From: a virus
Reading direction: 5' to 3' (one strand)
IMG/VR virus record: IMGVR_UViG_3300009180_000185
Span: 1-27,137 of that record
Length of the DNA: 27,137 bases
Shown here: one piece after another, positions 2,626-21,784 of the stretch
Layout of the letters: each line of letters begins with the position of its first letter
Numbering within the stretch: the stretch's first letter is position 1
Translations under genes and position numbers: made by a program
The notes under the pieces: model-generated
What the model was told of the DNA's origin: nothing
Seen by the model: only the letters and a program-made list of their open reading frames with translations
Database searches by the model: none

Positions 2626-2635
2626 GGGTTGAGAT

Positions 2636-3769: not shown

Positions 3770-5769
3770 TGGACGTTCAGCTCCCCGATGGCACCATCAT
3801 TCAAGACATTCCCGAGGGAACGACTAAGGCTCAGCTGACCGCCAAGCTGAAGGCGAGCGGCTACGACACGTCTGGGCTTGAGCCCGCGCTCATGAGCGAA
3901 CGCGAGCAGCTTCGCGAAGAAGGCAGGCAGCGTATCAAGCAAGCACAAACTGCTGAGCCAGAATATGCTGAGGTTCCTGTCTATGGCCCAGATGGCACCG
4001 CCACGGGTGCAACTGAGCGCGTGATGAAGCCCAAGGCCGACCCCATCGGCGCTGGCGTTTTGTCCACCTTGCCGTTTGGCGAGGACATTGGTGCAGTTGG
4101 CCGCTCTATGGTCAGCGGTCGCACGATGTCTCAAGAAAAAGACATCGGAGAAGGCGTCAGGCAGGCCACGCAGGAAGCCTACCCTGGAGCCTACAGGGCA
4201 GGGCAGGTTGGTGGGTTCTTGCCTGCTCTGGCGCTTCCCATGGGACTTGCTGGACGTGCCACGGGCTTCGCTGGGAAGACTGCGCTAGGCGCCCTTGAAG
4301 GTGCTGGGTACGGTGGCGCCATGGGCTTTGGCGAGGGAAATACCCTTGAAGAGCGTCTTGCAGCGGCTAAGAGTGGCGCTATCGGTGGTGGCCTGCTTGG
4401 TGGCGCTCTTGGGCGCTTTGCTGCGCCCGCTGAGAAGGCAGCTGCGCCTATCGTTCCAGAATCTGTGCAAGCAGCTGAGCGTCTTGGTGTTGATCTTCCC
4501 TATTATGCTGTGACCGATTCCCCTGCACTTCAGCGCGCTACTAAGGTTTCTGAGAGCATCCCACTAGCTGGTGAGCCGGTTACTGCCGCAAGGCAGAAAG
4601 CCGTTACACAGCTTGAAGACGCTGTTGATGCGCTGGTGCCGAAGATGACCACAGAGCAAGCAGGAGAGAAGATTGGATCCGGCATTAAGGGCTGGATGAC
4701 TTCTGGCGTTCGCGAAAAGGCAAAAGCTGCTTATGACGAGGTTGCTGGCCTGTTTGAGAATCCCGGCGTCACAAAGAGCCTTGAAAATACGACAAACGCC
4801 GTTGCCGACATTATGGCCAAACGTGCAAAAACTGGGATGGAAGGTGTTCCTACCGAAATATCCTCTATTCTCGGATCTATTCAAAAGCCGGGTGGTCTTG
4901 ATTATGATAGCGCAAAATATCTGCTATCTGACTTCAGGACAAAATATGTAACGAACAATCTCAACAAAACGATTGATGAGGTTGAAGTTAATAAAATCTA
5001 TCGGGCTCTACGGAATGATGTGATGGACATAGCCGAAGAGGCTGGTGGCGCACCCGCGCGCTTCTTCCTCCAGAAGGCTGATCGTGAATATCAAAAAATG
5101 TCCGCAATGCGCGAGCAGCTTGCCAAGATTGTTGGCAAGAAAGAAGGCGCGGTTAGCGACGAACAGATTTTTAATCGCCTCTTCAACGCTTCAAAGGATG
5201 GCGGATCGGCGAATAACAAGCTGGTTCAGCGCGCTATCACCGTGATGGAACCTGAGCAGCTGAAAGCATTCCAGTCTGGAATTTTGTCCAAACTGGGCCG
5301 CGATGCGCAAGATAATTTCTCGCCTGATCGGTGGCTCGGCGCAAAGGGCATCAACGCACTGAGCCCTCGGGCCAAGGCGATGATCTTCAAAGACGAACCA
5401 AAACTTGTTCAAGCGCTTGAAGACGTTACGGCGATCTCTGAACGGTTTAAGAACCTGAATAAGTTTGGCAACCCTTCCGGCACTAGCCAAGGCATATTTG
5501 GCGGGTTGACGATCACGTCGATGATCCATAGCCCCATAAAAACACTCGCAGTTCTTGCTGGTGCAAACGGCTTCACTCGGATCATGAGCAAACCCGCCAC
5601 GGCACAGGGTTTTGCCGATTGGGCTCGCCGGTACGAAAATTTCGTCAGGTTCCCGACTGAGCAAAGCGGTAAGCTTGCCTATCGTGCGGGACAGCAGCTT
5701 AATCAGATGGTTGCAGACGAAGCAGGGAAAAAGGTAGACGTTAACGACTACCTCAACAAAGGTCCCTAA
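3769..5769 (+). CDS. Large ejection/internal virion protein (gp16-like, 666 aa)
   Basis: ATG 3769 overlaps the previous TAA and is preceded by a run of six G. The N-terminus, DVQLPDGTIIQDIPEGTTKA, is a short module I recognise from the start of many phage internal-virion or DNA-transfer proteins. A Gly/Ala-rich hydrophobic segment at about residues 140-220 is followed by a long helical middle and a second hydrophobic stretch near residues 575-605. In short-tailed phages such proteins leave the capsid with the genome and line a channel across the envelope. I see no lysozyme motif in it. Its end overlaps the convergent glycosyltransferase gene by 17 bases with no terminator between them. Confidence 0.7.
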   Translation: MDVQLPDGTIIQDIPEGTTKAQLTAKLKASGYDTSGLEPALMSEREQLREEGRQRIKQAQTAEPEYAEVPVYGPDGTATGATERVMKPKADPIGAGVLSTLPFGEDIGAVGRSMVSGRTMSQEKDIGEGVRQATQEAYPGAYRAGQVGGFLPALALPMGLAGRATGFAGKTALGALEGAGYGGAMGFGEGNTLEERLAAAKSGAIGGGLLGGALGRFAAPAEKAAAPIVPESVQAAERLGVDLPYYAVTDSPALQRATKVSESIPLAGEPVTAARQKAVTQLEDAVDALVPKMTTEQAGEKIGSGIKGWMTSGVREKAKAAYDEVAGLFENPGVTKSLENTTNAVADIMAKRAKTGMEGVPTEISSILGSIQKPGGLDYDSAKYLLSDFRTKYVTNNLNKTIDEVEVNKIYRALRNDVMDIAEEAGGAPARFFLQKADREYQKMSAMREQLAKIVGKKEGAVSDEQIFNRLFNASKDGGSANNKLVQRAITVMEPEQLKAFQSGILSKLGRDAQDNFSPDRWLGAKGINALSPRAKAMIFKDEPKLVQALEDVTAISERFKNLNKFGNPSGTSQGIFGGLTITSMIHSPIKTLAVLAGANGFTRIMSKPATAQGFADWARRYENFVRFPTEQSGKLAYRAGQQLNQMVADEAGKKVDVNDYLNKGP

Positions 5770-6892: not shown

Positions 6893-7014
6893 AGGAAAGT
6901 GTCCTCAATCATCTGCCAAGTCAGAAGCGCAAGAAACAGTATAGCGCTGACAGACCCTGTTGTGACAACAAGAGTGACGGCGGTGAGCATGATGGTGATT
7001 AGGGTGTCATTCAT
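6889..7014 (-). CDS. Small single-span membrane protein (41 aa)
   Basis: This tiny gene links its neighbours by overlapping stops and starts at both ends: its ATG lies in the final codons of the coiled-coil gene upstream (AATGAATGA), and its TGA lies in the ATGA that begins the next gene. After MNDT it has one continuous hydrophobic stretch (residues 5-33, ITIMLTAVTLVV and following) and a short acidic tail ending in EDTFL. This is the pattern of a one-pass inner-membrane peptide. Function is unknown; holin-like, accessory or exclusion roles are possible but unsupported. Confidence 0.6.
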   Translation of the reverse strand: MNDTLITIMLTAVTLVVTTGSVSAILFLALLTWQMIEDTFL

Positions 7015-7189
7015 TATCGTCGCCCTCTTTCAGGATTGATTGCACTACATTAACGCTCACTGAATTGATCTGTTTGTTCTTCAATAGGAATCGCAGTAGA
7101 CCTTCCAATGTGTCGATGCGTACCTTGAGCCCGTCAATTTCAGAGTTCTGCTCATTGAGCAGATTCTGGACCCGTGATGCTTCAGTCAT
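7007..7189 (-). CDS. Small coiled-coil protein, divergent last member of the tandem array (60 aa)
   Basis: The start ATG 7189 lies inside the previous gene's stop (GATGACTGA) and uses that gene's GGAGGGG as ribosome-binding site. The sequence is a heptad-rich helix (VQNLLNEQNSEIDGLKVRID, then TLEGLLRFLL). It keeps the general design of the three genes before it but not the exact RIEKLEAAL core or LEGKDD tail; its own tail is LKEGDDNE. This suggests an older or diverged copy. Function is unknown; oligomerisation through the coiled coil is likely. Confidence 0.65.
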   Translation of the reverse strand: MTEASRVQNLLNEQNSEIDGLKVRIDTLEGLLRFLLKNKQINSVSVNVVQSILKEGDDNE

Positions 7190-7215
7190 CTTTCCCCTCC
7201 AGTGCTTTGCGGGCG
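7182..7215. repeat. Direct repeat, copy A (gene-junction repeat)
   Basis: This is one of three direct repeats at the gene junctions of the coiled-coil array. On the leftward strand it encodes the (R)KALEGKDD tail of one gene and contains the ribosome-binding site and ATG of the next. This copy and the one at 7601 agree over 34 bases. The three copies are spaced about 205 and 214 bases apart. Confidence 0.9.
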
Positions 7216-7394
7216 CGCACTTCAATCTTCGCCCACTCATCATCGTAGTCACAGTGCTGACAGTGATCTCCCCAGAGCAGAAAATCCCGCAGCGCCGCCT
7301 CCAGCTTCTCAATGCGGTCGGCGGCATCTTCAAGCAAACCCCATGTACTTTCGCCGTAATCCCATTTGCGTAGCCGCTTCACAAGGTCAGTCAT
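7182..7394 (-). CDS. RIEKLEAAL-type small coiled-coil protein, copy 3 (70 aa)
   Basis: It begins MTDLVKRLRKWDYGEST, followed by AADRIEKLEAALRDFLL, a short Cys/His segment (GDHCQHCDYDDEW) and a C-terminal ARKALEGKDD. The DLVKRLR and RIEKLEAAL pieces are shared with copy 1 at 7601. Such small proteins are common in alphaproteobacterial phages and have no known function. The two Cys and one His near residues 44-48 could bind a metal, which the sister copies lack. The start overlaps copy 2 by eight bases, giving tight coupling. Confidence 0.75.
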   Translation of the reverse strand: MTDLVKRLRKWDYGESTWGLLEDAADRIEKLEAALRDFLLWGDHCQHCDYDDEWAKIEVRARKALEGKDD

Positions 7395-7413
7395 CTTTCC
7401 CCTCCAGTGCTTT
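7387..7413. repeat. Direct repeat, copy B (gene-junction repeat)
   Basis: The middle copy matches the other two over 27 bases, from the TCA of the stop through the codons for Lys-Ala-Leu. It diverges beyond, where the codons encode TAE instead of VAR or RAR. Confidence 0.9.
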
Positions 7414-7608
7414 TTCAGCCGTTTCGCGCATTCTGTCCGCAATCATGCAGCAGTCTGGATCATCCAATGCTATCTTTTTAAGCGCCGCCTCTAGCTTCTC
7501 GATGCGGTCATCGCGCTCACCAAGCACTTCGTTGTACCGCGCTAACCAATACTGCCATCGCGGCAGCGTCAGTTCGCCCACTTGAGGTAGCTTGAGATCA
7601 TCAGTCAT
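7387..7608 (-). CDS. RIEKLEAAL-type small coiled-coil protein, copy 2 (73 aa)
   Basis: It shares RIEKLEAAL (residues 35-43) and the KALEGKDD tail with its neighbours. Its N-terminal half differs (DDLKLPQVGELTLPRWQYWL), replacing the LVKRLR segment of copies 1 and 3. The middle has CC at residues 53-54. The start ATG 7608 lies within the stop of copy 1, and the GGAGGGG encoding Leu-Glu-Gly of copy 1 sits four bases before it as the ribosome-binding site. Function is unknown. Confidence 0.75.
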   Translation of the reverse strand: MTDDLKLPQVGELTLPRWQYWLARYNEVLGERDDRIEKLEAALKKIALDDPDCCMIADRMRETAEKALEGKDD

Positions 7609-7634
7609 CTTTCCCCTCCAGTGCTTTGCGGGCG
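7601..7634. repeat. Direct repeat, copy C (gene-junction repeat)
   Basis: The rightmost copy is identical to copy A over 34 bases. The RIEKLEAAL codons, also repeated (around 7291-7319, 7481-7509 and 7692-7719), provide a second set of near-identical DNA, so both ends of the duplicated unit are conserved. Confidence 0.9.
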
Positions 7635-7783
7635 ACACGCCGCATTGCTTGCGACACGGGGCAGCATTCCCACCCCTCAGACAAATCAAGCAGCGCCGCC
7701 TCCAGCTTCTCGATGCGGGCAGCGGCTTCACGGCACTCACGCAGCGGGTATTCTCGCAGCCGCTTCACAAGATCATCGCTCAT
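7601..7783 (-). CDS. RIEKLEAAL-type small coiled-coil protein, copy 1 (60 aa)
   Basis: The start is ATG 7783, which overlaps the stop of the upstream micro-gene as ATGA; a longer extension to 7807 would overlap that gene more. The protein reads MSDDLVKRLREYPLRE, then AAARIEKLEAALLDL, a short segment with CC, and RKALEGKDD. It is the most upstream member of the tandem array. A parallel coiled coil is likely from the heptads. No catalytic residues are seen. Confidence 0.75.
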   Translation of the reverse strand: MSDDLVKRLREYPLRECREAAARIEKLEAALLDLSEGWECCPVSQAMRRVARKALEGKDD

Positions 7784-7893
7784 TTGTCGCCCCCATTCAG
7801 CCACCAAGGATTGCGATCACGGAAGTACCAGTAGGCCAGCACTACTAGGATCACGATTGTCACGCATATGGAGTCGATAGCATGGTCGCTCAT
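7780..7893 (-). CDS. Small single-span membrane protein (37 aa)
   Basis: ATG 7893 has AAGGAG seven bases upstream and overlaps the stop of the upstream gene as ATGA; its own TGA overlaps the start of the coiled-coil array in the same way. After MSDHAIDSI comes a hydrophobic span (CVTIVILVVLAYWYF, residues 10-24) and a short polar tail ending NGGDK. The strong ribosome-binding site and double coupling make it a real gene. Function is unknown. Confidence 0.7.
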   Translation of the reverse strand: MSDHAIDSICVTIVILVVLAYWYFRDRNPWWLNGGDK

Positions 7894-11381: not shown

Positions 11382-13113
11382 CTTTGGCCTCGTTGTAGGC
11401 ATATACCTTGAAGTATTCGCCCTGCTTTTGATACGTTATGGTTTGCGGTGTTTCTCCCTTCAACATAGCAAACATATTATAAGATGCAACCTCATTCGCC
11501 CATTTTGGATTGCGTGATACCCAAAAAGTAAACCGTCTGTGTGGAGTGATTACAAAAATGCTGTACTGGTCTCTTCCTGCTCGACTGATTGTAGGGCGAA
11601 CAATGAACTTTATCACCTCGTCGCATTGCCTGCGGTACGGATCATTCTTTTTTTCTTTGTAAGCAAGTCGCAGCTTTTGGTTAGGGTCAACCAATTCGGC
11701 TTTGCATTTCATGCAGTAGCGCGCTGCAATGTCGTTCAGTTCTTCACAGTACGGGCATTTTTTGCTGGTCCATCTATATAAACACCTACGAAGTTCACCT
11801 CCGTAAACGTGCTCCGCGGTGCAGCGACGACCAAAGTGCGCGGGAATAGGGCCGTATTCTCCATCAACTGTATCGCCGTCTAGATCGCAAAAATATCCAG
11901 CTTGATTGATTGCAAATCTGGTTGGATTGGGCCTTGCTCTGAAGCAATTTAGCGCGCTGCAATCTGGGCAAATGCAATCAACTCTCTCTTCTCCAGATTC
12001 GTCTTTAGCCTTTATATTTGGGTCAAAAATGTCTCCGTCTGGGCAATGCCGATCTGTGTTCTCGGCATAGTCTAAAACCAAACAATCTTTTTTACCATCA
12101 TGAAGGCGCAACCCCCTTCCGATGATCTGTTGCATAAGGCCTACCGACTCGGTAGCGCGCATCATAGCGATAACGTCAACATGCGTTGCATCAAACCCTG
12201 TGGTCAAAACAGCAACGTTAACAATGTATTTTATTTTCTGAGCTTTGAACGCTTCAAGGATGCGTTCGCGTTCAGTCTTGTGGGTTTCTCCAGTTACGAT
12301 AGCCGATATCTCTGGTGGCAGGCTAGCCAACACTTCACGCGCATGGCGAACAGTTGCGGCAAAAATTAGAACACCTCGCCGATCTTTCGATTGTTCCACA
12401 ATATCGTCAACGATGTTTGCTGTCTTGCGCCCCTGCCCATGATACGCGCGGTCAATGTCTTCTTTTGAAAATTGACCCTTTCGATCCAATTTCATCTGCT
12501 TCGTTTCGTAGGATTTCACTCCAATTTCGCCAAGCACTGGAGGGGTAAGATAGCCTTGTTTGATCAGTTCTTGGGCCGTTATGCGATACACACACCGAGT
12601 AAAATATGGTTCTACAGCTGGTGTTATTGCGCCTCCATCCGCGCGCTGCGCATATATGTAGCCGGTGTTCATTCGGTATGGAGTAGCAGACATGCCCACA
12701 ACCCTTAAATTGGGATTGGGAATACTGCTGATTATTTTTTTAATTGTAGGGGTAATTCCATGACATTCGTCAATGATCACCATTGCAATTTCGCTACCAA
12801 ATTGGTCAATGCTGTTCAGCACTGTCATTGGCGTTCCAAAAACAACAGGATGCTCAAGGCTTTTTTCTCCGACGCTCGCCGAAAAGAAAGACGCATCGCC
12901 GGGGTACTTGGCGTGGTTCTGCTCTACAAGCTCTTTTGATGGAGCAATACACAGAACCTTTTTTCCGCTCATGCCAAGAACGGTTTCTGCAAGCGCCGAA
13001 ATGATATGACTCTTTCCGGCGCCTGTCGCTGCCTCAATCATGCAAGGTTTGGTAATCTTGCAGATCCAGTTGACGATTGCATCGTGCGCTAATTGCTGGT
13101 AAGGCCTAAGCAT
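11365..13113 (-). CDS. RadD-like superfamily 2 helicase with zinc fingers (582 aa)
   Basis: This ATP-driven DNA translocase or helicase shows all the main motifs in order: RPYQ (3-6), Walker A ATGAGKS (29-35), DECH (115-118), SATPYR (142-147), TTGFD (304-308) and QIIGRGLRL (329-337). Two cysteine clusters follow, C380/C382/C385/C390 and C453/C456/C467/C470 (CPYCEELN, YCMKCKAELVDP), each able to bind zinc. The length (582) and this arrangement match E. coli RadD, which acts in recombination repair together with single-strand-binding protein. It shares one base with the YqaJ gene (TAATG) and overlaps the VRR-NUC gene. It probably processes recombination intermediates with those partners. Confidence 0.88.
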   Translation of the reverse strand: MLRPYQQLAHDAIVNWICKITKPCMIEAATGAGKSHIISALAETVLGMSGKKVLCIAPSKELVEQNHAKYPGDASFFSASVGEKSLEHPVVFGTPMTVLNSIDQFGSEIAMVIIDECHGITPTIKKIISSIPNPNLRVVGMSATPYRMNTGYIYAQRADGGAITPAVEPYFTRCVYRITAQELIKQGYLTPPVLGEIGVKSYETKQMKLDRKGQFSKEDIDRAYHGQGRKTANIVDDIVEQSKDRRGVLIFAATVRHAREVLASLPPEISAIVTGETHKTERERILEAFKAQKIKYIVNVAVLTTGFDATHVDVIAMMRATESVGLMQQIIGRGLRLHDGKKDCLVLDYAENTDRHCPDGDIFDPNIKAKDESGEERVDCICPDCSALNCFRARPNPTRFAINQAGYFCDLDGDTVDGEYGPIPAHFGRRCTAEHVYGGELRRCLYRWTSKKCPYCEELNDIAARYCMKCKAELVDPNQKLRLAYKEKKNDPYRRQCDEVIKFIVRPTISRAGRDQYSIFVITPHRRFTFWVSRNPKWANEVASYNMFAMLKGETPQTITYQKQGEYFKVYAYNEAKDEAPK

Positions 13114-13964
13114 TACGAAAGCTTCCAGTAGCTGCTTTTTTCCCCTCGATATGGCTCTAAATCGAGATGAGGAAGGTACTGTTTTACTACTTTCGCATAG
13201 CTAACAGAACCTTCTCGCTCAACATGTGTCAGCTTGCGCCCATTGAACGATGCGTTTTTGCTTCCAGCTATTTCAACCAGCTTTTCCAAGAGCTCTTTCT
13301 TGCGTTCTTCGTAAAGTTTGATCGCATTGGTTGCATCATCGTATTCCGCAAGGATTTGGGAAGCATTGAACTCTGGTCTTTTTGGCAAAAGATGCCGTTC
13401 TGGGTTTTTGATTTCCTCAAGGTAGTCAGCGTAGAACAAGCGAAGCTTCGAAATGGCGTCATCGACAAATTCCTTATCGTAGACAACTGTTTCTAGATAT
13501 GTTTCTTTGGGGCTCCATTGATAAAAGCTACACCATCTACGCTCCGTAACATGAAGCTGAAACTGCATCTGTGCGTAATAGTGCATTTGTTCAAGAGCTG
13601 TCTTAAATACGCCCTCACCTTTGCGCATACTGAAAGGGCACTTTACTTCTACAAGACCAAACTCTCCAACAAGCCCATCAGGAGACGCGCCAAGCCAATC
13701 CCCAACTCTGAAGAAACCGCATGGTTGAACAATGTGACCCGTTTCCATTTCGTATTCAACGATCGCGCCTGCTTCGTTCGCAACCCCCCATTCTGTTGCT
13801 ACGTTTCCCTTAAACTCTGACTCTTCACCATGATATTCGCGCACCATGCGGCGCATTACATCATCGGCGGTCATGAATGGAGAGTAACCCAAGATCGCCC
13901 CAACTGATGATCCTGTTATTCTACCCTTTCGGGCTTTAAACCATTCTGCGCTGCGCTGTTCCAT
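13113..13964 (-). CDS. YqaJ-family viral recombinase/exonuclease (283 aa)
   Basis: This is a lambda-exonuclease-like 5'-3' nuclease that resects double-stranded ends to provide single strands for annealing. The start RSAEWFKARKGRITGSSVGA is the family N-terminus. Active-site residues lie in GASPDGLVGEFGLVEVKCPF, with D96, E106 and K108, followed by the Gln-rich helix MHYYAQMQFQLHVT. E64 probably also belongs to the active site. ATG 13964 has AAGGAG six bases upstream. Its neighbours are the RadD-like helicase and, upstream, the DUF669-like protein and Sak4-like ATPase, a standard two-component recombination layout. Confidence 0.92.
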   Translation of the reverse strand: MEQRSAEWFKARKGRITGSSVGAILGYSPFMTADDVMRRMVREYHGEESEFKGNVATEWGVANEAGAIVEYEMETGHIVQPCGFFRVGDWLGASPDGLVGEFGLVEVKCPFSMRKGEGVFKTALEQMHYYAQMQFQLHVTERRWCSFYQWSPKETYLETVVYDKEFVDDAISKLRLFYADYLEEIKNPERHLLPKRPEFNASQILAEYDDATNAIKLYEERKKELLEKLVEIAGSKNASFNGRKLTHVEREGSVSYAKVVKQYLPHLDLEPYRGEKSSYWKLS

Positions 13965-14014: not shown

Positions 14015-14521
14015 TTAGAAAGGTACATCAGCCATGGGCTTTTGTTGAGCTTTGCGCTCGACACCCATGACCCAATTACCCTCTTTGGTTTCTCCGGTAG
14101 ATTCGTCTTTCATCTTCCAGACCATCACTTTTATAAGCATCTGCTTACCGCCAATGCACTGCTGCATTACCTCATCAGTCGGCTCAAGTTTCTGTGCAGC
14201 CATTTTTCCACCAGCATACGCATCAATGGCAAACAGCATCCGCTTGGCCTTGTCGCGCTTCTTTTCAGGGTCTTTGGCCTGCGGGTTATCATCCGCCACC
14301 CAAAGCTTCTGGAAAATTTTGCGGTTCTTGTATTCAACCGGACCGAGAATGGTCCAACGAAGAGAAATAAACCTGTTCTGATCACGGTCTTGGTCCCATT
14401 TCGCTTCGTCGATATACGCAAGACATTGCGTGTTGCTTGGAATGGGAGTGATCTCTCCCCCTCCGATCTCAAACTTTTCCGATACTTCGAAGTCGCCTTC
14501 ACTAAGATTCCAAAAGCTCAT
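14015..14521 (-). CDS. DUF669-like phage single-stranded DNA-binding protein (168 aa)
   Basis: The protein starts MSFWNLSEGDFEVSEKFEIG and contains CLAYIDEAKWDQDRDQNRFI, RWTILGPVEYKNRKIFQKLW and NPQAKDPEKKRDKAKRMLFA, which I recognise from DUF669-type phage proteins that behave as single-strand-binding proteins. The C-terminus ends ADVPF, the acidic-phenylalanine tail type used by such proteins to contact partner enzymes. It is placed between the Sak4-like ATPase and the YqaJ exonuclease, and its start overlaps the stop of the ATPase as ATGA. A role coating single strands during annealing is likely. Confidence 0.82.
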   Translation of the reverse strand: MSFWNLSEGDFEVSEKFEIGGGEITPIPSNTQCLAYIDEAKWDQDRDQNRFISLRWTILGPVEYKNRKIFQKLWVADDNPQAKDPEKKRDKAKRMLFAIDAYAGGKMAAQKLEPTDEVMQQCIGGKQMLIKVMVWKMKDESTGETKEGNWVMGVERKAQQKPMADVPF

Positions 14522-15273
14522 TTTAGTGCTCCAATGTAGGCTGAGAGGGGGTTAATACCGGTTTCAACGGTCAAGGGTTCAGTGATGCCGTAGCGGTTCT
14601 TGCTGACATTTGCAGCTGTCGCATGAGTGATCAGAATACGAGTCCCGTCCGAGATCGCTTTCTTTTTGTCACCGTCGCCAGTTGTAAAAGTTTCAAGCTT
14701 CAAAAACCCCACGATATCTACGTCATCAACGTAAGCTGGCATGGACTTTTCGTGAAGCCTAAGCGTGTAGCGCATATAAGCATCATCGTCTGGTGGCTCG
14801 ACGCGGCTTGTGTCCGCATGAGCAACGAAGACGGTGTTCATGCCACGCTTTTCAGCGAGAAGGCCCGCTGCTTTACGAACCCTTGCGTGCATCGCCGCGA
14901 CTGCATCGCGACCAGCACCATATCCCCCTAAAGCCTGTTGGATACCGCGAGGCTTCTTTGGGTCTGTCTCTACAACATGCAAGGAAAACATGCGCTCTAA
15001 AGCGGTCACGCTATCGACCACTAAAGTTCTGTATTGATGTTCTTCGTGCATGAGACCTTTCAGTTGGTCCCAAAGCATGTCAACCCCGGTCAAAACCGGA
15101 AATGCGTCGGGGCGACGGTCTACAGGAATAGCCTGCAATCCGTCTTCGGCGCGTATGACGATTGGCTTTGGAAATGTGCAAGCAAGGGTCGTTTTACCCA
15201 AGCCGCTATCACCACATACCGTGATGAGTACAGGTCGGTCAGCGGGTTTGCTGACCGTTGATAGGATGCTCAT
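14518..15273 (-). CDS. Sak4-like RecA-fold ATPase (AAA_24, 251 aa)
   Basis: This is a phage single-strand-annealing or strand-exchange ATPase of the Sak4 type. Walker A is GDSGLGKT (residues 21-28) and Walker B is LVVD (84-87) in YRTLVVDSVTALERM. Further elements are GYGAGRDAV, NTVFVAHADTSRV and the late ATAANVSKNRYG. ATG 15273 is chosen because GAGGAG lies seven bases upstream; an ATG two codons earlier is too close to that site. It is the first gene of the long leftward operon, behind a promoter at 15303-15331, and is followed by its DUF669-like partner. Confidence 0.88.
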   Translation of the reverse strand: MSILSTVSKPADRPVLITVCGDSGLGKTTLACTFPKPIVIRAEDGLQAIPVDRRPDAFPVLTGVDMLWDQLKGLMHEEHQYRTLVVDSVTALERMFSLHVVETDPKKPRGIQQALGGYGAGRDAVAAMHARVRKAAGLLAEKRGMNTVFVAHADTSRVEPPDDDAYMRYTLRLHEKSMPAYVDDVDIVGFLKLETFTTGDGDKKKAISDGTRILITHATAANVSKNRYGITEPLTVETGINPLSAYIGALK

Positions 15274-15302
15274 TGGCATTCTCCTCTTTTCTCAACCCAT
15301 TG

Positions 15303-15567: not shown

Positions 15568-17797
15568 TTTTTGGGAAGCTAAATATAGAATCTTTGGCCT
15601 GCACACGATCAAAAAAGGAAAATGCGGATGCGGAAATGATGACTGCAAAGCAGTAGGAAAGCACCCACTTGCTTCAAATTGGCAGCACACGCCAATGTGG
15701 GACGATGAACAGATCGAGACGATGGAAGTCGCTGATCAGTTCATAACAGGATACGGAGTGCTGGTTCGGGGTCTGCTCGTGATCGACGTCGACGCACGAA
15801 ATGGTGGAGTCATATCGTACGAGCGACTCAAATCTGATTTCCCCATCATCGAAAAAGCAGGATTGATCGTCAGCACAGGATCAGGCGGCGGGTCAAAGCA
15901 TGTCTATTTTTCTGTTCCTGATGATCTAGCTCTTGTGCAAAAACACGCCGACTATCCCGGTATTGACTTCAAATCGTCTGGTTATGTGGTAGGTCCTGAA
16001 TCGCAGCACGTTTCTGGCGCCCGGTATATCGTTGAATACGGATCCCCTGAAGACATCGACGCCGCTCCTGCCGGGTTGATCTCCCTATTAAAGAAGCCCG
16101 ATCGGCATCGCGCAGAAATAGCTGGTCAGCCAGTCGATGTTTCACATGCAGACATTTCCGAAATGCTTGAAGTCATCAACCCCGACAGCGATCACGAAAC
16201 ATGGGTGCGCTGCGGTATGGCTGTGCATCACGCATCCGCTGGAACAGCCTTTGCCGTTTGGGATAAATGGTCAGCACAAGGAAGCAAATACCCAGGTTCT
16301 GACGTTCTTTCTAAGCGCTGGCACAGCTTTGGAAAAGCCGCGAATCCTGTCACGCTTGGTACGCTTACACATTATGCTGAGACGAACGGCTGGAAACAGT
16401 CCGTCACGTTTGAAGCTGAGCTTCCTGCTGATGTCGGTCTTGATATTACAAACGTGAACCTTAAGCGCCCTCCAGGCTTCGTAGGGCTTGTAACGGAATG
16501 GATCGAGGATCAATGCCGCAGACCTCGAGAACATCTGTCGGTAGCAGGAGCTCTCACCGCAATCGGAAACATTGTTGGTCTTAAGTACACAGACGATCTT
16601 GATTCGATCACATCGAACCTGTTTTCGTTCTGCGTTGCAGGATCAGCGACGGGAAAAGATAGCATCCTGTCAGCCGTTACGGAGATACATCTTGCAGCGG
16701 GTATTCATCCCGCAACGCATGGGTCTATCAAGTCAGAGCAAGAGATCATTAGAAACCTTGTCGATCATCAGGCCTCGTTCTACGCAATTGACGAGATTGG
16801 TATTTTTCTCGGCAAGGTTAAGAACGCACAAGCGAAAGGCGGCGCACCATATCTCGACGGCATCATTGGTGTGCTCATGTCGATCTACAGCAAAGCGAAC
16901 GGATACTTGCTCCTTACCGGCGATATGAAAAAAGAAGTACGCAAAGCCATGCGCGCCGAATGTGTTCAGATTGAAAAGCAGATTGAAGAAGAGCCGTCAC
17001 CCGCGCTCGATAAAAAGCTAGCTGAGATCAAAGTGCAAATGCAAAACCTTTCACACGGATTGACGAAGCCTTTTCTGTCGCTGATCGGTTTTACAACAAA
17101 TGTTACCTTTGACAGTCTTGTTGATTTTCAGAACGCGACGAACGGATTCGTAGGTAGGTCCGTTCTATTTACAGAATGGAATACGTCTCCTGCTCGCAAG
17201 AGAAACTTTCGCGCTCGCAAGATGCCCGACAGCTTGAGGTATGCTTTATCTCAGCTTTATAGCGGCGACAGCTATGATTCAGTTGCGGATCGGCGCATCG
17301 AACACTACAGCGACCGAATCAAGATTCCGACAACTCCCGGCGCCGCTGAGCTTCTGGAAAAGGTCGCTGATATTTTTGACGAGATGGCCGAAGATCACAA
17401 ATCAAAGACCGGACTGGAAGCTATCGCCCTGCGGGCCTACGAGCAGGTAGCTAAGGTTTCTCTGATCCTTGCAGTACCTGAAGGGCTACGCACTGAAGAG
17501 CATGTACGGTGGTCCTACGCCCTGATCATTCGCGACATCAAACAGAAGATGGATCTCGTAACCGGCAACGAGCGCGCAAAAGACGATCCGGGCTCAGCGC
17601 TGCAAGCGAAGTTGCGCAATATGATCCGCGACGAAGACGGCGAGACGCTTGGAGTCATCGTCAATCGGTTGCGGCAATACAAGAAAGCAGACATCGAGCG
17701 CTGCTTAAATGAGATGATTCGAGTGGGGTCAGCGGTCGTGATTGAGTCGCAGCACAAATACAATAAGGCTATGGTCAAGCGGTACAGGGGTGCTTAG
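15557..17797 (+). CDS. Bifunctional primase-polymerase fused to a helicase-like ATPase (746 aa)
   Basis: ATG 15557 has GGAGG five bases upstream. The first 180 residues are a PrimPol domain (PF09250 type): a small Cys/His cluster (C23, C25, C30, H36), GLLVIDVDARNGG with the catalytic DVD at 77-79, STGSGGGSKHVYF with H115, and GIDFKSSGYVVGP. Residues about 195-280 (MLEVINPD, WVRCGMAVHHAS, RWHSFGKAANP) match the PriCT-2 linker domain. The C-terminal half holds a DUF3987-like ATPase with Walker A GSATGKDS (362-369) and Walker B FYAIDEIG. It should prime and unwind phage DNA at the origin. No replicative DNA polymerase is in this window. The stop codon lies within the stem of a terminator. Confidence 0.9.
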   Translation: MYRDFWEAKYRIFGLHTIKKGKCGCGNDDCKAVGKHPLASNWQHTPMWDDEQIETMEVADQFITGYGVLVRGLLVIDVDARNGGVISYERLKSDFPIIEKAGLIVSTGSGGGSKHVYFSVPDDLALVQKHADYPGIDFKSSGYVVGPESQHVSGARYIVEYGSPEDIDAAPAGLISLLKKPDRHRAEIAGQPVDVSHADISEMLEVINPDSDHETWVRCGMAVHHASAGTAFAVWDKWSAQGSKYPGSDVLSKRWHSFGKAANPVTLGTLTHYAETNGWKQSVTFEAELPADVGLDITNVNLKRPPGFVGLVTEWIEDQCRRPREHLSVAGALTAIGNIVGLKYTDDLDSITSNLFSFCVAGSATGKDSILSAVTEIHLAAGIHPATHGSIKSEQEIIRNLVDHQASFYAIDEIGIFLGKVKNAQAKGGAPYLDGIIGVLMSIYSKANGYLLLTGDMKKEVRKAMRAECVQIEKQIEEEPSPALDKKLAEIKVQMQNLSHGLTKPFLSLIGFTTNVTFDSLVDFQNATNGFVGRSVLFTEWNTSPARKRNFRARKMPDSLRYALSQLYSGDSYDSVADRRIEHYSDRIKIPTTPGAAELLEKVADIFDEMAEDHKSKTGLEAIALRAYEQVAKVSLILAVPEGLRTEEHVRWSYALIIRDIKQKMDLVTGNERAKDDPGSALQAKLRNMIRDEDGETLGVIVNRLRQYKKADIERCLNEMIRVGSAVVIESQHKYNKAMVKRYRGA

Positions 17798-17816
17798 CAA
17801 ACTAAGCACTTTTTTT
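17790..17816 (+). terminator. Rho-independent terminator of the primase gene
   Basis: GTGCTTAG-CAAA-CTAAGCAC forms a perfect 8-bp stem with a four-base loop and is followed directly by seven T. The primase TAG stop (17795-17797) is part of the left arm. Confidence 0.9.
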
Positions 17817-17851
17817 CGCTAATCTCTTTTTGTATTGAAAATCAACGGCTT

Positions 17852-17883: not shown

Positions 17884-17899
17884 AGATATAAACACAGAT

Positions 17900-17981
17900 A
17901 AAGACACAGAAAAAGAGAGAGAAATATATATATATAGAGATATATATATATATACTACTAACTACTTTTTTCTGTGTCTTT
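17900..17981. terminator. Long inverted repeat, likely bidirectional terminator, with TA tracts
   Basis: AAAGACACAGAAAAA (17900-17914) is perfectly complementary to TTTTTCTGTGTCTTT (17967-17981). Between them lie two alternating TA tracts (about 17923-17936 and 17940-17954) that could fold on each other. The element sits between the rightward primase and the leftward early block, so a transcript from either side could fold it, with T-rich ends on both sides. The whole 17798-17996 gap is AT-rich and shows no credible gene. Confidence 0.7.
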
Positions 17982-17996
17982 TCAATGGGTTAGTCG

Positions 17997-18203
17997 TTAG
18001 AGGTGCTTCGCTAACTTCTCAGCTAACCACTTTTCGTCAATTTTGCCTTCGTCGAGGGCTTCAAGGACAAGCTCAGTCGATCTAGGAAGGGGGCGCGCGC
18101 CAGTTATCCAGTTGAATACAGATCTGGTCGTACAGCCGGTGATGAAGGCCAAATCTTTTTGCCGAATGTTGTGACGGTCAAGTGTTGTTTGTAAGTTGTC
18201 CAT
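17997..18203 (-). CDS. Small XRE/Cro-like helix-turn-helix protein (68 aa)
   Basis: ATG 18203 has AAGGA about seven bases upstream. The body contains a helix-turn-helix: IRQKDLAFITGCTTRSVFNW, then ITGARPLPRSTELVLEAL, with the Gln, Ala, Gly-Cys and Trp spacing of XRE family regulators. The C-terminus is helical and charged. It is the last gene of the leftward early block and precedes the convergent terminator. It probably represses one of the phage promoters; which one is unknown. Confidence 0.78.
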   Translation of the reverse strand: MDNLQTTLDRHNIRQKDLAFITGCTTRSVFNWITGARPLPRSTELVLEALDEGKIDEKWLAEKLAKHL

Positions 18204-18384
18204 TGCGGTGTCCTTTGTGTGTGCAGGCATAGGTGTCGCCCTGTCGCAGTCTCTTGCCTGTTGTGATGCGGGTCTTGCCGCAGGCACAGACGCACAGGAA
18301 GGCTGCGCGGCCATTGGGCGCCTTGCCTACATGCTCAAGCACGGTCAGGAGGCCATAGGTCTTGCCGATCTCGTCAATGCTCAT
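18178..18384 (-). CDS. Small zinc-ribbon-like phage protein (68 aa)
   Basis: Cys31, Cys33, Cys35, Cys54 and His56 (LCVCACGKTRITTGKRLRQG, then YACTHK) resemble the compact Cys-x-Cys-x-Cys-Gly ... SCGC module common in phage proteins next to homing or DNA-binding domains; the C-terminal pair here is Cys-Thr-His. The N-terminus IGKTYGLLTVLEHVGKAPNG is the typical lead-in. ATG 18384 overlaps the upstream stop as ATGA. A DNA-binding role is plausible but not shown. Confidence 0.65.
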   Translation of the reverse strand: MSIDEIGKTYGLLTVLEHVGKAPNGRAAFLCVCACGKTRITTGKRLRQGDTYACTHKGHRNGQLTNNT

Positions 18385-18497: not shown

Positions 18498-18640
18498 AGG
18501 AGAGCCTCTCGGGCTTGTTGGCGGGTAGGGTGATGGGTAAGAGCTCCAGAGATAGAAAGCGCCCTCCACCCCCCGGCTGGGCGCTTTTGCACCCAGCCCA
18601 TCAGTTTGCCGTTGAGAAGAACTCCATCAATCGGGTTCAT
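18488..18640 (-). CDS. Hypothetical small protein (50 aa)
   Basis: ATG 18640 overlaps the upstream TGA as ATGA. The sequence (MNPIDGVLLNGKLMGWVQKR, then GGWRALSISGALTHHPTRQQ and AREALLCS) looks like a small beta-hairpin domain with a helical end. No family is recognised with confidence. Confidence 0.6.
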   Translation of the reverse strand: MNPIDGVLLNGKLMGWVQKRPAGGWRALSISGALTHHPTRQQAREALLCS

Positions 18641-18936
18641 GCGAGCACCTTTGCGCGAATCTTTACAGACAGGTTCTGACGGGTTGAACCGACTTTGCAT
18701 TCGTCGGCTTGCGCTTTGGTAATGTACCCAAGCTCTATGGCGCGCTCTAATTTGAAGCTGTTCGTAGCTGTCAGGCTGAAATCGAGAAAGAACTGATCTC
18801 CGTTCACGATGGCTTTCATGTCATCGCCCGCAGCGTTCATGCAGGCGGTAAGAGCTTCTTCTTTTAGAGCTTCGTACTGTTTCTTCATTGCTTTGTATTC
18901 GGCTTCGATGAGGGCGAATCTGTCGGCGATGTTCAT
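18637..18936 (-). CDS. Hypothetical helical protein (99 aa)
   Basis: The first 35 residues form a charged helix (RFALIEAEYKAMKKQYEALK), followed by a compact region (DDMKAIVNGDQFFLDFSL) and a basic end (KVGSTRQNLSVKIRAKVLA). It follows the 25-residue membrane peptide and has a weak AGGAA ribosome-binding site. Function is unknown; the helix could form a coiled coil. Confidence 0.65.
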   Translation of the reverse strand: MNIADRFALIEAEYKAMKKQYEALKEEALTACMNAAGDDMKAIVNGDQFFLDFSLTATNSFKLERAIELGYITKAQADECKVGSTRQNLSVKIRAKVLA

Positions 18937-18952: not shown

Positions 18953-19030
18953 TTAGATGAAAGCGATGGCTGTAACCATTCCGAAGATGGTGAAGCAAAT
19001 TAGAGCGAGGATGGCTTCGATGATTTTCAT
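18953..19030 (-). CDS. Very small membrane peptide (25 aa)
   Basis: MKIIEAILALICFTIFGMVT plus AIAFI is almost entirely one hydrophobic span. ATG 19030 follows CCGGAG, and this is the first gene after promoter P1 (19058-19097), with a 27-base leader. Promoter, ribosome-binding site and clear stop support translation, although a peptide this short needs direct proof. Confidence 0.5.
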   Translation of the reverse strand: MKIIEAILALICFTIFGMVTAIAFI

Positions 19031-19055: not shown

Positions 19056-19250
19056 TCAGAATAATGGTTCCGGGCGGGCAGTCAAGAACTTTTTTCCGGT
19101 TTTATGCTGTTCGATTGCTTTTTTCAATTCGATGTTGTCTTCGGCTTTAAGAAAGCACGAGGCCATCGGGTGATTTCTGTCGTATTTGGCGAGCTTTTCA
19201 GCGTTCGCATCGGATGGATCGGCGCGGTAGGATTCAATAAGCTTGATCAT
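19056..19250 (-). CDS. Hypothetical small protein (64 aa)
   Basis: ATG 19250 follows CCGGAGACCAAAAC, a leader shared by several genes in this block. The body (LIESYRADPSDANAEKLAKY, DRNHPMASCFLKAEDNIELK) is helical and polar. The last residues (GKKFLTARPEPLF) are encoded by promoter P1 DNA, so the C-terminus may be shaped by the promoter rather than by protein function. Confidence 0.6.
   Translation of the reverse strand: MIKLIESYRADPSDANAEKLAKYDRNHPMASCFLKAEDNIELKKAIEQHKTGKKFLTARPEPLF
19058..19097 (-). promoter_or_regulatory. Repeated early promoter P1
   Basis: On the leftward strand: an A-tract plus GTTC, then TTGACT (-35, 19085-19080), a 16-base spacer with ACCAT next to the -10, and TATTCT (-10, 19063-19058). 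It matches P2 and P3 over the A-tract/-35 block and the ACCATTA block. It lies across the 3' end of the 64-aa gene and drives the 25-aa peptide and the genes after it. Confidence 0.8.
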
Positions 19251-19269
19251 GTTTTGGTCTCCGGTTGAT

Positions 19270-19295
19270 AACCGCCCCTGTTTTGAGGGGCGGTT
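19270..19295 (-). other. Perfect 10-bp GC-rich stem-loop
   Basis: AACCGCCCCT and AGGGGCGGTT enclose a six-base loop in the gap between the genes ending at 19302 and starting at 19250. No U-tract follows in the leftward direction. It may end or protect the upstream messages. Confidence 0.85.
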
Positions 19296-19301
19296 GTTGT
19301 T

Positions 19302-19484
19302 TCAGGCTTCGACCTCTTGAGGTGCGTAAACTTCTTCAATCTTAACCACCACCCAGCGCTGGCCGGTTGTGTCGGTGCGGCGGTCTGCCTGCTGCTTAGC
19401 TTGGCTCAACCAGCAATAAGTGTCGGCGATGGCGATCTGCTGGGCGAAGGTGAGGTCAGAGTCGTTGTTGATCAGGTAATACAT
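19302..19484 (-). CDS. Hypothetical small protein (60 aa)
   Basis: The sequence begins MYYLINNDSDLTFAQQIAIA and continues DTYCWLSQAKQQADRRTDTT and RWVVVKIEEVYAPQEVEA. A helical first half and a short beta C-terminus are likely. The start lies three bases after the upstream stop. I recall no function. Confidence 0.6.
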   Translation of the reverse strand: MYYLINNDSDLTFAQQIAIADTYCWLSQAKQQADRRTDTTGQRWVVVKIEEVYAPQEVEA

Positions 19485-19487
19485 GGC

Positions 19488-19661
19488 TCAGTTCTCCAGA
19501 ATGTAAGCTGCGATCTCGTCGCGGATGTTTTGGGGAAGGTCGAGAACAGGCTTGCGATACCAGTCGTAGGCAAGATCCATGAACTGCTGAATGTCAGATT
19601 GAGTGGGTTCGCGGGTCCCGATTGCGCGGGCATAGTCAAAGGCATCAATGAGGTCTTGCAT
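19488..19661 (-). CDS. Hypothetical small helical protein (57 aa)
   Basis: ATG 19661 follows CGGAGACCAAGCAA, the recurring leader of this block, and is the first gene after promoter P2; longer readings of the frame run through the promoter and are rejected. The protein (DLIDAFDYARAIGTREPTQS, then MDLAYDWYRKPVLDLPQNIR) is acidic and helical. Function is unknown. Confidence 0.65.
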   Translation of the reverse strand: MQDLIDAFDYARAIGTREPTQSDIQQFMDLAYDWYRKPVLDLPQNIRDEIAAYILEN

Positions 19662-19702
19662 TTGCTTGGTCTCCGTTGGGCTGGTCTGCTTCGATGTTTT
19701 TG

Positions 19703-19742
19703 ACTTTAATGGTATTTCTAAGGCAGTCAAGAACTTTTTTCC
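19703..19742 (-). promoter_or_regulatory. Repeated early promoter P2
   Basis: The same layout as P1: A-tract, GTTC, TTGACT (19730-19725), 16-base spacer ending ACCAT, and TAAAGT (19708-19703). The TGA inside the -35 is also the stop codon of the preceding 156-aa gene, so promoter and gene end share DNA. Confidence 0.75.
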
Positions 19743-20197
19743 ATAAAAGTAGGTTTTTGTCGATTTTTCCAAGTAGCAATGGAGTGCTTCTCGTTTATGT
19801 AATAATTTCTGTAAGCTTGAACGGTGTTTGGGTTTTTGTATTGATCAGGCATGGCTTGAGGCGCTGGGGTAAACCCGATGTCAGGTATTTTAGCTGGTGG
19901 AAATCTGACCGATTCAAGAATCTTTTGGCAGGCGTGTGTTTTGCCGTAGCGGTGCGTGTACTCTTCGCACAGCGCCATACCATGCTCCCATAACCAGCGG
20001 TAGTTCTCGGCAGAATCCCCCGCCCAGCGGGTTGAGGGATGATTGGCATGGGTCAGCTTGTAAGGCGCTGGCTCATTGTAGCGGTGGTAAACCGCGCATA
20101 ACATCTGCGCGGTCTCTAATGGCATCTTTACGATGTGCTTGTCGCACTGCATCACAGCAGCTGTTTCAGGATTTGTGTCGAGGAAAAAGATGTTCAT
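19727..20197 (-). CDS. Conserved phage protein with CDKHIVKM motif (156 aa)
   Basis: The N-terminus (MNIFFLDTNPETAAVMQCDK, then HIVKMPLETAQMLCAVYHRY) belongs to a small protein family I recall from many phages; its function is not established in my memory. Also visible are HPSTRWAGDSAENYRWLWEH, EEYTHRYGK and a late KNPNTVQAYRNYYINEK, with several His, Asp and Cys positions that might form an active site. The stop is embedded in promoter P2. The start immediately follows the previous stop and has no clear ribosome-binding site, so translation is probably coupled. Confidence 0.75.
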   Translation of the reverse strand: MNIFFLDTNPETAAVMQCDKHIVKMPLETAQMLCAVYHRYNEPAPYKLTHANHPSTRWAGDSAENYRWLWEHGMALCEEYTHRYGKTHACQKILESVRFPPAKIPDIGFTPAPQAMPDQYKNPNTVQAYRNYYINEKHSIATWKNRQKPTFMEKSS

Positions 20198-20458
20198 TTA
20201 GATGATCGCTTTCTGTTGAAGAGCTTCGTGAAAGGCTACCAAAGCTCCGGCGTTGAGCTCCCGCTTGATCTTCAATGGGCCGCTGAAGATCACACCAAGC
20301 TGGCGCCCGCGCTCGTAGTCCCACTGTAGCGCGCCCTCAAGGTATGCGTCTGGGTCAAAAGCTTTGCCCTTCTGGGCGTCTTTGAACCCCCTAATGAAGG
20401 GGGCTCGTTTCATGAGGTACACAAGTCGTACCTTTTTGGTGCGAACTTGCCGGATCAT
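20198..20458 (-). CDS. Hypothetical protein (86 aa)
   Basis: ATG 20458 overlaps the upstream stop as ATGA. The sequence has MIRQVRTKKVRLVYLMKRAP, then FIRGFKDAQKGKAFDPDAYL and EGALQWDYERGRQLGVIFSG, the last resembling a short conserved helix (WDYERGRQ) found in other small phage proteins. Function is unknown. Confidence 0.65.
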   Translation of the reverse strand: MIRQVRTKKVRLVYLMKRAPFIRGFKDAQKGKAFDPDAYLEGALQWDYERGRQLGVIFSGPLKIKRELNAGALVAFHEALQQKAII

Positions 20459-20844
20459 GAGCGCACCTCGTAAGGCTTGTCCCAGCTGCCGATGTTGATG
20501 TAGCAGTACCAACCCACGTCGAAGTAATCGGATTGGCTGTCGCTGTTATCCCAGTTGCCTTCCATCAGAACCGGCCAGATCTCGTTCATGAAGTCGAGGG
20601 CTTCACCGCTGAAAGATTCTGACCAGTGATGGCGGCTAACAGTGATGTTATTTTTAGCAGGCTCCCAAAGCGGGTTGCTCCAAGACTTAGCTTGAATGGT
20701 CTCGTTATGGTTGTTGAGCATGTCGAGCTTGCCCGCGCTGAGCTTTAGAGTCAGAGTGCCGCGAGGTGCGCTGAGGCTTCCCTTGAAGCCGTACTTCTGA
20801 AGGATGGGCTTGGCTTTGGCTGCGATCTTGGCTTTGTCTAGCAT
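20455..20844 (-). CDS. LPD29-like domain protein (129 aa)
   Basis: The C-terminal segment SDSQSDYFDVGWYCYINIGS followed by WDKPYEV is characteristic of the LPD29 domain, which otherwise occurs in large polyvalent proteins of mobile elements. The N-terminus (MLDKAKIAAKAKPILQKYGF, then KGSLSAPRGTLTLKL) matches the start of small stand-alone versions in my memory. It is the first gene after promoter P3 and has the leader CCGGAGACCAAGCC. Function is unknown. Confidence 0.7.
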   Translation of the reverse strand: MLDKAKIAAKAKPILQKYGFKGSLSAPRGTLTLKLSAGKLDMLNNHNETIQAKSWSNPLWEPAKNNITVSRHHWSESFSGEALDFMNEIWPVLMEGNWDNSDSQSDYFDVGWYCYINIGSWDKPYEVRS

Positions 20845-20869
20845 TGGCTTGGTCTCCGGTTACATGTTC

Positions 20870-20908
20870 ACAATAATGGTATTGCTCAGTCAGTCAAGAA
20901 CTTTTTTC
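20870..20908 (-). promoter_or_regulatory. Repeated early promoter P3
   Basis: TTGACT (20897-20892) and TATTGT (20875-20870) are separated by 16 bases, with A-tract and GTTC upstream and ACCAT next to the -10. It shares with P2 the longer AATACCATTA block. It lies in the gap between the 97-aa and LPD29-like genes. Confidence 0.8.
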
Positions 20909-20911
20909 CGA

Positions 20912-21205
20912 TTATTGTAGATTTTTTGCACGATCGCAAATTGCGCCTGCGATCTGTTCGAATCCAATGAAGTCCAGTGCGGAGAATGTAAAGAGCTCTC
21001 GGGCAGCGCCTTGGTACTCTGAATTCGATATGACCATGACGTGAGTAAAACCATTGGTCTTATAGGTAGCCCCGTTCGATTTGATGTATTTCTTTACTAA
21101 GCCGTCTCGGCTAACGCTCGTGGCTTTGGCTAGGAAGTAGTGGTATTCATTTCCGTAGTTCAATTGAACAGCTATGATGTCGTTTCGTTTGGCTCTGGGG
21201 TTCAT
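20912..21205 (-). CDS. Hypothetical protein (97 aa)
   Basis: ATG 21205 has AAGGAG followed by CCCAAC, the same leader as the next gene upstream. The sequence (KRNDIIAVQLNYGNEYHYFL, AKATSVSRDGLVKKYIKSNG) looks like a small SH3-like or Tudor-like beta barrel, and the C-terminus is helical. This fold guess is only from residue pattern. Function is unknown. Confidence 0.65.
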   Translation of the reverse strand: MNPRAKRNDIIAVQLNYGNEYHYFLAKATSVSRDGLVKKYIKSNGATYKTNGFTHVMVISNSEYQGAARELFTFSALDFIGFEQIAGAICDRAKNLQ

Positions 21206-21228
21206 GTTGGGCTCCTTAGGGGAAATAG

Positions 21229-21247
21229 AGGGGGGTAATCCCCCCTC
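21229..21247 (-). other. G/C stem-loop between early genes
   Basis: GAGGGGG and CCCCCTC enclose a five-base loop in the 50-base gap between the 61-aa and 97-aa genes. No U-tract follows leftward, so it resembles the other non-terminator hairpins of this genome. Confidence 0.75.
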
Positions 21248-21255
21248 CGGTTGGT

Positions 21256-21441
21256 TTACTGTGCGAGGATGGCGTCAACAGTTTTGAAGTTAAGGTAAAT
21301 TGTTTCGCCGTTTTTCCTGTAGACGATGCCGAAATTTCCGGTAGCGCCGCCATCGTGCATAATGCTGCAAGCTTTGGTCCAACCATTCTTGGCAAGGAGG
21401 GTCTGGGCTTGAGCGATTTGGGTGCGAAGGGTGTTGGTCAT
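21256..21441 (-). CDS. Hypothetical small protein (61 aa)
   Basis: ATG 21441 has AGGAG followed by CCCAAC and is the first gene after promoter P4, so it is expected to be the earliest in the block. The sequence MTNTLRTQIAQAQTLLAKNG is a helix, then GGATGNFGIVYRKNGETIYL a beta hairpin. No family is recognised. Confidence 0.65.
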   Translation of the reverse strand: MTNTLRTQIAQAQTLLAKNGWTKACSIMHDGGATGNFGIVYRKNGETIYLNFKTVDAILAQ

Positions 21442-21473
21442 GTTGGGCTCCTGTTTGGCTAGTTGATGATTTG

Positions 21474-21511
21474 ACTATAATCGTGCCTTTAGGCCAATCA
21501 AGAACTTTTTT
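21474..21511 (-). promoter_or_regulatory. Repeated early promoter P4
   Basis: TTGATT (21501-21496) and TATAGT (21479-21474), 16-base spacer, with A-tract and GTTC upstream and further A-tracts to about 21534 that could act as an UP element. It is the most diverged in sequence of the four and lies at the head of the block, divergent from the rightward GapR-like gene. Confidence 0.75.
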
Positions 21512-21534
21512 CATCTTTTTTACTTTTTTTTTTG

Positions 21535-21543
21535 TGCTATCGT
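21535..21543 (+). promoter_or_regulatory. Possible rightward extended -10 promoter
   Basis: TGCTATCGT (21535-21543) resembles an extended -10 and lies 22 bases before the GapR-like start codon. No matching -35 is evident, because the upstream DNA is a run of T. This is a weak call supported mainly by position at the start of a rightward gene series. Confidence 0.25.
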
Positions 21544-21565
21544 AGCCGCGCAATGGGAGATGCAC

Positions 21566-21784
21566 ATGGAAAACAACCGACTGAAGGCGTTTGTTGAGCG
21601 AATTGAAAAGCTTAACGAAGAACGAGATGCTATCAACGTGGACATCAAGGAAGTCATCTCGGAAGCAAAGTCCGATGGCTTCGATGCTAAAATACTCAAG
21701 AAAGTCATAGCGTTGCGCAAAATGGATCCGGCCGAACGCGAGCGAATCGGTGTTCTGGTCGAGACCTACATGGCAGCGCTCTAA
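21566..21784 (+). CDS. GapR/DUF2312 family nucleoid-associated protein (72 aa)
   Basis: The sequence FVERIEKLNEERDAINVDIK, then EVISEAKSDGFDAKILKKVI and ALRKMDPAERE, is the DUF2312/GapR pattern, a small coiled-coil protein of alphaproteobacteria that binds AT-rich, overtwisted DNA around replication and transcription. ATG 21566 is used because GGGAG lies six bases upstream; an ATG two codons earlier touches that site. A phage copy could help its own replication or compete with host GapR. It overlaps the ParB-like gene by one base. Confidence 0.85.
   Translation: MENNRLKAFVERIEKLNEERDAINVDIKEVISEAKSDGFDAKILKKVIALRKMDPAERERIGVLVETYMAAL

Follow-up and report, generated by a model that had tools for sequence, protein, structure and literature searches.

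Repeated promoters known as promoter-early stem-loops (PeSLs) have reportedly been described in the T4-type phages RB49 and phi1 by Arbiol (2010) and Comeau (2014). PeSLs unite a promoter with a terminator and mediate shuffling (PMC4503421). The early promoters of T4 combine UP, -35, TGn and -10 elements (PMC2988021), and T4-like phages have an early consensus of their own each, frequently with an A-rich region at -40 to -44 (PMC1524935). The Methylophilales phage Melnitz, a large T4-like phage, carries an array of alike promoters, one of them ahead of a gene of the phrog_10415 family (PMC9004378). The current study concerns four near-identical elements, P1 to P4, in a leftward block of small genes on a stretch of viral DNA of 27,137 nucleotides (IMG/VR record IMGVR_UViG_3300009180_000185; hereafter the window). 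The results suggest that these elements are strong, repeated host-polymerase promoters for small early genes, and that promoter and leader probably double as homology boxes for recombination.

All four elements lie on the minus strand, 53-69 nt upstream of an ATG that is preceded by the ribosome-binding site GGAG, and share the pattern GGAAAAAAGTTC-TTGAYT-N16-TANNNT, with P4 lacking the first G. Their cores (19058-19085, 19703-19730, 20870-20897 and 21474-21501) have a spacing of exactly 16 bases in each case. The -35 boxes are close to TTGACA (TTGACT in three copies, TTGATT in one), and the -10 boxes (TATTCT, TAAAGT, TATTGT and TATAGT) are near TATAAT, at a spacing within the 16-18 bp usual for strong sigma70-type promoters. 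The hexamer AAAAAA is found 4 bases ahead of TTGAYT in 4/4 elements, where it is UP-like (-40 to -46) by position only. ACCATTA is common to P1-P3, P4 having ACGATTA. The sequence-only reading had described four such elements at these places, with a common ACCATTA in three of them and a location across or against gene ends, and in all these respects it was confirmed: P1 and P2 overlap the upstream open reading frames (ORFs), P3 directly follows one, and P4 is intergenic (Table 1).

The pattern TTGAYT-N16-TANNNT occurs 4 times in the window, compared with 0.32 expected from dinucleotide shuffles, which gave a maximum of 2 and never 4. A search of the 27137-base record with AAAAAAGTTCTTGAYT returned 4 matches, every one inside the leftward block, and 0 in the reversed control; the copies are therefore confined to this block, as had been claimed. 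Among the direct repeats listed for the window, this family comes first (49 nt). Scanning with the plain sigma70 consensus gave no excess of sites in the window (16 found, 16.0 expected), indicating that the signal lies in the repetition and in the wider match.

The proximal UP element is the contact site of the polymerase alpha subunit. Since the A-tract is at the UP-element position, P1-P4 can be read as strong promoters for the host polymerase, of the sigma70 type. The match had been called wider than a sigma70 promoter needs; its width is real, and is largely explained by the A-tract at this position and by GTTC, which is common among comparable sites. Sites of the form A6-N4-TTGAC-N17/19-TATAAT were taken from viral contigs irrespective of their tetramer, and in this sample GTTC was the commonest tetramer among the matches listed (9/136 loci, compared with 3.6 expected from its columns). 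The upstream half is therefore a generic arrangement of strong promoters at which many phages have arrived. Other contigs hold arrays that share this upstream half and have unlike downstream halves. The possibility that GTTC is peculiar to this phage was rejected, as the tetramer recurs in other phages.

A near twin of the window, contig L056 (91-95% nucleotide identity), has retained all four elements in place. Of the sites invariant among P1-P4, 0/104 differ between the window and L056, compared with 6/88 of the variable sites (Fisher p 0.008). Anatomy and conservation together give good support to the claim that promoters head the leftward block; promoter activity, use of the host polymerase and early timing are predicted on these grounds, and a co-ordinately fired early regulon is plausible. 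P1-P4 resemble the early promoters of T4 and T4-like phages, which are numerous, closely similar promoters for the host polymerase, have an A-rich, UP-like region and a phage-particular consensus, and often stand ahead of novel ORFs. Unlike those phages, the window has four copies only, in one block, with 16-bp spacing, no TGn and a variable spacer.

In L056, P4 and its leader are in the same place but are followed by an entirely different ORF; over the 128 nt that span the promoter, the leader and the first codons, the two phages differ at 1 site. Homology resumes at the next leader, and GGAGCCCAACATGA is common to both leaders. The incoming ORF of L056 is 92.3% identical over 248 nt to an ORF of a third phage, L420, compared with ~75-84% for the shared backbone elsewhere. 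This likeness begins at the Shine-Dalgarno sequence and ATG, which indicates that the ORF moved without its promoter. The elements had been suggested to be mobile cassettes. This did not hold between the window and L056, where the promoters stayed and the ORF was exchanged, but it is supported by relatives, namely by a promoter-leader block copied in L420 ahead of a second gene and by chimeric promoters in contigs L140 and L153.

L420 is a contig of a metagenome-assembled genome, and its terminase is 91% identical to that of the window in amino acids (83% in nucleotides). The same block is present with three elements, e1 to e3, of the sequence GGAGAAAATAGTTCTTGC, and a search of the entire 1.5-Mb assembly with AAAAWAGTTCTTGM gave these 3 matches only (reversed control, 0). 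Element e2 precedes a homologue of the 57-aa gene of P2 and keeps the P2 leader; e3, like P1, precedes a unit with the 99-aa homologue; e1 precedes the swapped ORF, and the P3-led unit is missing. Over 74 nt, leader included, e1 and e2 are identical at 73 positions, and their leader resembles that of P2. This agreement indicates that one promoter-leader block was copied over another site. Of 20 core positions, 17-20 agree when copies of one phage are compared, and 13 when the window is compared with L420; the promoter copies evolve in concert within each phage. No repeated promoter cassette was seen in the other terminase relatives L505, L506 and L421.

In L153, two promoters are chimeric relative to L140: on the left, each corresponds to the flank of one L140 promoter, and on the right to the next promoter. 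One gene unit is gone at each joint. Misassembly is unlikely to explain the second joint, because the promoter at that joint is identical in L152, L154, L156 and L157, which come from other samples.

P1-P4 seem to work similarly to PeSLs. In both cases strong sigma70-like promoters are repeated among small accessory genes, and exchange of genes at the repeats may also be common to both, as the chimeric promoters of L140/L153 and the copied block of L420 suggest. The earlier comparison with promoter-plus-stem-loop elements is upheld to this extent and fails for the stem-loop: no terminator hairpin with a T tract was found in the 88 nt upstream of P1-P4 or in their leaders, and the two G+C-rich hairpins of the block each lie within a unit, between two ORFs, and carry no T tract on the strand that is transcribed. 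Since the terminator is lacking, P1-P4 were not classified as PeSLs. Further differences are that the phage may not be T4-type, that the swap in the window was joined in a leader, and that the recombinase would be RecE/Sak4-like. The array may represent a terminator-free variant of the T4-type phage idea, in which repeated promoter-leader boxes are copied, homogenized and used as joints for small genes.

In the explanation that we consider probable, P1-P4 would be one strong promoter in four copies, recognized by the housekeeping RNA polymerase of the host (UP-like A-tract, TTGAYT, 16 bp, TAnnnT). Each copy is followed by a short leader and a ribosome-binding site, and the four are distributed over a single leftward block of small genes that are probably early. 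Because no terminator lies ahead of P3, P2 and P1, each promoter would also reinforce read-through transcription from upstream. The likeness of the copies would let promoter and leader act in addition as short homology boxes. Recombination between boxes would swap, delete or add small ORFs in such a way that every ORF still has a promoter and a start site ahead of it, and would also keep the copies within one phage alike. The recombination seen in relatives presumably acts in the window as well, and the agent is probably the phage's own exonuclease together with the Sak4-like annealing protein. Such annealing proteins recombine short, rather divergent sequences and add to phage mosaicism (PMC8093625, PMC5499656), which makes the RecE/Sak4-like proteins of the window likely agents at the boxes.

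Several points weigh against this explanation. The -10 boxes of P1-P4 match TATAAT at only 4-5/6 positions, at 16-bp spacing and without TGn. Elements e1 and e2 of L420 have poor -35 and -10 matches (TTGCGA, TAAGGT) and are weak by sigma70 rules, so that the part conserved between phages is AAAAWAGTTCTTG, and not a complete sigma70 promoter. The joint of the window's own swap is the leader, not the promoter. Breakpoints of related array-bearing contigs were at promoters in both partners in 16/104 cases (3.5 expected); this excess favours the explanation but is kept as support only, because the pairs are related, and hence not independent, and because alike promoters draw alignment ends.

It could also be argued that P1-P4 are ordinary early promoters only, whose near-identity reflects selection for strong binding of the host polymerase. 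ORF exchange at unit borders would then be what selection leaves, and the promoters would not be recombination joints. The constraint on polymerase-contact positions while the spacer drifts, the recurrence of the joint A6-GTTC-TTGAC in other phages and the same placement of the promoters in the window and L056 are consistent with this view. However, the likeness of e1 and e2 extends over 74 nt with the leader, beyond what the polymerase needs, L153 has chimeric promoters, and the copies differ in concert between the window and L420; we therefore consider selection on promoters alone rather unlikely.

Alternatively, a phage regulator such as the helix-turn-helix (HTH) protein encoded at 17997-18248 in the same block may bind to the repeated core, and would control the block and keep the copies alike by co-evolution. 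This would be compatible with the promoter-leader boxes described above. The core differs between phages and not within them, the HTH region is conserved in the window, L125, L126 and L420, the HTH protein weakly matches the repressor family phrog_2328, and the arrays of L125/L126 and L011/L071 have conserved palindromes in or near the promoter. In the window array, however, no conserved palindrome of at least 6 bp was found (such palindromes are present in L006, L011 and L071), so the operator-like palindrome in every copy that marks a repressor array is lacking here, and the A-tract and -35 box are accounted for by polymerase contacts. A regulator site as the cause of the repetition is judged unlikely. 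Chance or low-complexity similarity, to which only the lack of excess in the plain consensus scan would point, is refuted by the shuffles (0.32 expected), the uniqueness of the family in the record, the constraint relative to L056, which kept the elements, and the separate family in L420.

Arrays were also common among more distant contigs, in a set of 80 fetched solely by phrog_10415 homology. A sigma70-like promoter is just upstream of the phrog_10415 gene in 53/80 contigs, 44 of the 53 having further copies. In total, 42 families of at least three promoter copies (window included, and with some families in contigs that overlap or are duplicates) were detected, compared with 0 in reversed sequence. 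L125 and L126 have four-copy arrays (2750-4720 and 1714-4355, respectively) in which a palindrome such as ATACGAAG-AAA-CTTCGCAT fills the promoter spacer, and their terminases match another family (phrog_38). The arrays of L006, L011, L053, L071 and L086 combine A-tract-GTTC-TTGAC with a perfect, operator-like palindrome, ATGATC-T-GATCAT, over the -10 box and start. A proposal that arrays track the ParB-like gene was rejected, with 0 arrays in 79 ParB-fetched contigs apart from the near twin. Among four named phages with phrog_10415, a promoter array was present only in Melnitz; it resembles that of the window in its alike promoters and in the promoter ahead of the phrog_10415 gene, and differs in element sequence and in belonging to a large T4-like phage.

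The phrog_10415 protein of the window (20455-20844) has a conserved DYFDVGWY motif and is regularly promoter-linked in the contigs searched. Its fold model is confident (predicted local distance difference test, pLDDT, 86.6), and a search for a solved structural relative of the model found none (best E 0.5).

A broader form of the explanation, which we put forward as possible though doubtful, is that of a plug-in array. Annealing recombinases would dock on the promoter-leader boxes, small early ORFs would pass from phage to phage without their promoters, and gene conversion would maintain the likeness of the boxes within a phage. Such a device would be general, occurring in many phage groups and often close to the widespread gene phrog_10415, and it would depend neither on terminators nor on T4-type biology.

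The units of the leftward block are P4 with the 61-aa and 97-aa ORFs; P3 with the phrog_10415 gene, one ORF and the glycosylase-like gene; P2 with the 57-aa, 60-aa and 64-aa ORFs; and P1 with the 25-aa and 99-aa ORFs and onward (Table 1).

Table 1. Features of the leftward block and of the proposed recombination machinery (positions in the window).
Feature	Position	Strand	Remarks
P1 promoter element	19058..19097	-	-35 TTGACT 19080-19085; -10 TATTCT 19058-19063; A-tract/GTTC 19086-19097; wholly within 3' end of 64-aa ORF
P2 promoter element	19703..19742	-	Upstream Pyr_excise-like (pyrimidine-glycosylase-like) ORF ends within its -35, with TGA as stop codon
P3 promoter element	20870..20909	-	~2 nt past stop of 97-aa ORF; heads phrog_10415 unit
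P4 promoter element	21474..21512	-	Divergent intergenic region
P4 leader	21442..21473	-	Ribosome-binding site CAGGAGCCCAAC; left joint of ORF swap
61-aa ORF behind P4	21256..21441	-	Unrelated ORF of ~72 aa in its place in L056
97-aa ORF	20912..21205	-	Leader repeats GGAGCCCAACATGA, right joint of swap
129-aa gene, phrog_10415 family	20455..20844	-	First ORF behind P3
ORF of P3 unit	20198..20452	-	Start tentative; listed TTG ORF is 20198-20512
156-aa pyrimidine dimer glycosylase-like protein	19727..20197	-	phrog_624, PF03013; last ORF of P3 unit
57-aa ORF	19488..19661	-	First behind P2; start ATG 19661; homologue (39%) behind e2 in L420
60-aa ORF, P2 unit	19302..19484	-	78% identical in L420
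64-aa ORF, P2 unit	19056..19250	-	3' end contains P1
25-aa hydrophobic peptide MKIIEAILALICFTIFGMVTAIAFI	18953..19030	-	First ORF behind P1; codon changes relative to L056: 7 synonymous, 4 not
99-aa ORF, P1 unit	18637..18936	-	79% identical in L420
Hairpin between ORFs	19262..19297	-	Without T tract on minus strand; absent in L056
Hairpin between ORFs	21228..21247	-	Different G+C-rich stretch in its place in L056
RecE-like exonuclease	13113..13964	-	phrog_434, TIGR03033; proposed part of recombination machinery
Single-strand DNA-binding protein	14015..14521	-	phrog_9002
Sak4-like single-stranded DNA annealing protein	14518..15279	-	phrog_124

On the plus strand at 21535-21543, back to back with P4, an extended -10-like sequence (TGC-TATCGT) lies ~17 nt ahead of a GapR-like gene (21560-21784), and is possibly a divergent rightward promoter. 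An intrinsic terminator (17797-17817) was found behind the primase-polymerase gene, and a long AT-rich palindrome (17896-17983) between the converging rightward and leftward units. Elsewhere in the window, tandem related small ORFs (7007-7807, minus strand) contain repeated coding segments (RIEKLEAAL... and ALEGKDD ends), with 3 copies per repeat. The protein encoded at 22412-23311 matches phrog_842, a beta-glucosyl-HMC-alpha-glucosyltransferase family, and is possibly a DNA-modifying glycosyltransferase.

Among named phages, a short-query search with the 40-mer gave chance-level matches only, and a megablast of 12.5 kb gave no match; a literature search for GTTCTTGAC returned nothing relevant. 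The nearest terminases in named phages include those of Caulobacter phages (~50%), and the GapR-like gene may indicate an alphaproteobacterial host. The assembly that contains L420 is labelled Opitutae, possibly through a binning error. A search of bacterial genomes with the primase detected no prophage, and the window record may be a fragment.

These results point to a link between the switching on of small early phage genes and their gain or loss. If the boxes are the joints, the turnover of tiny, uncharacterized phage genes, otherwise puzzling, would be predictable and open to test, and new genes would be expected between boxes, behind a ready promoter and start site.

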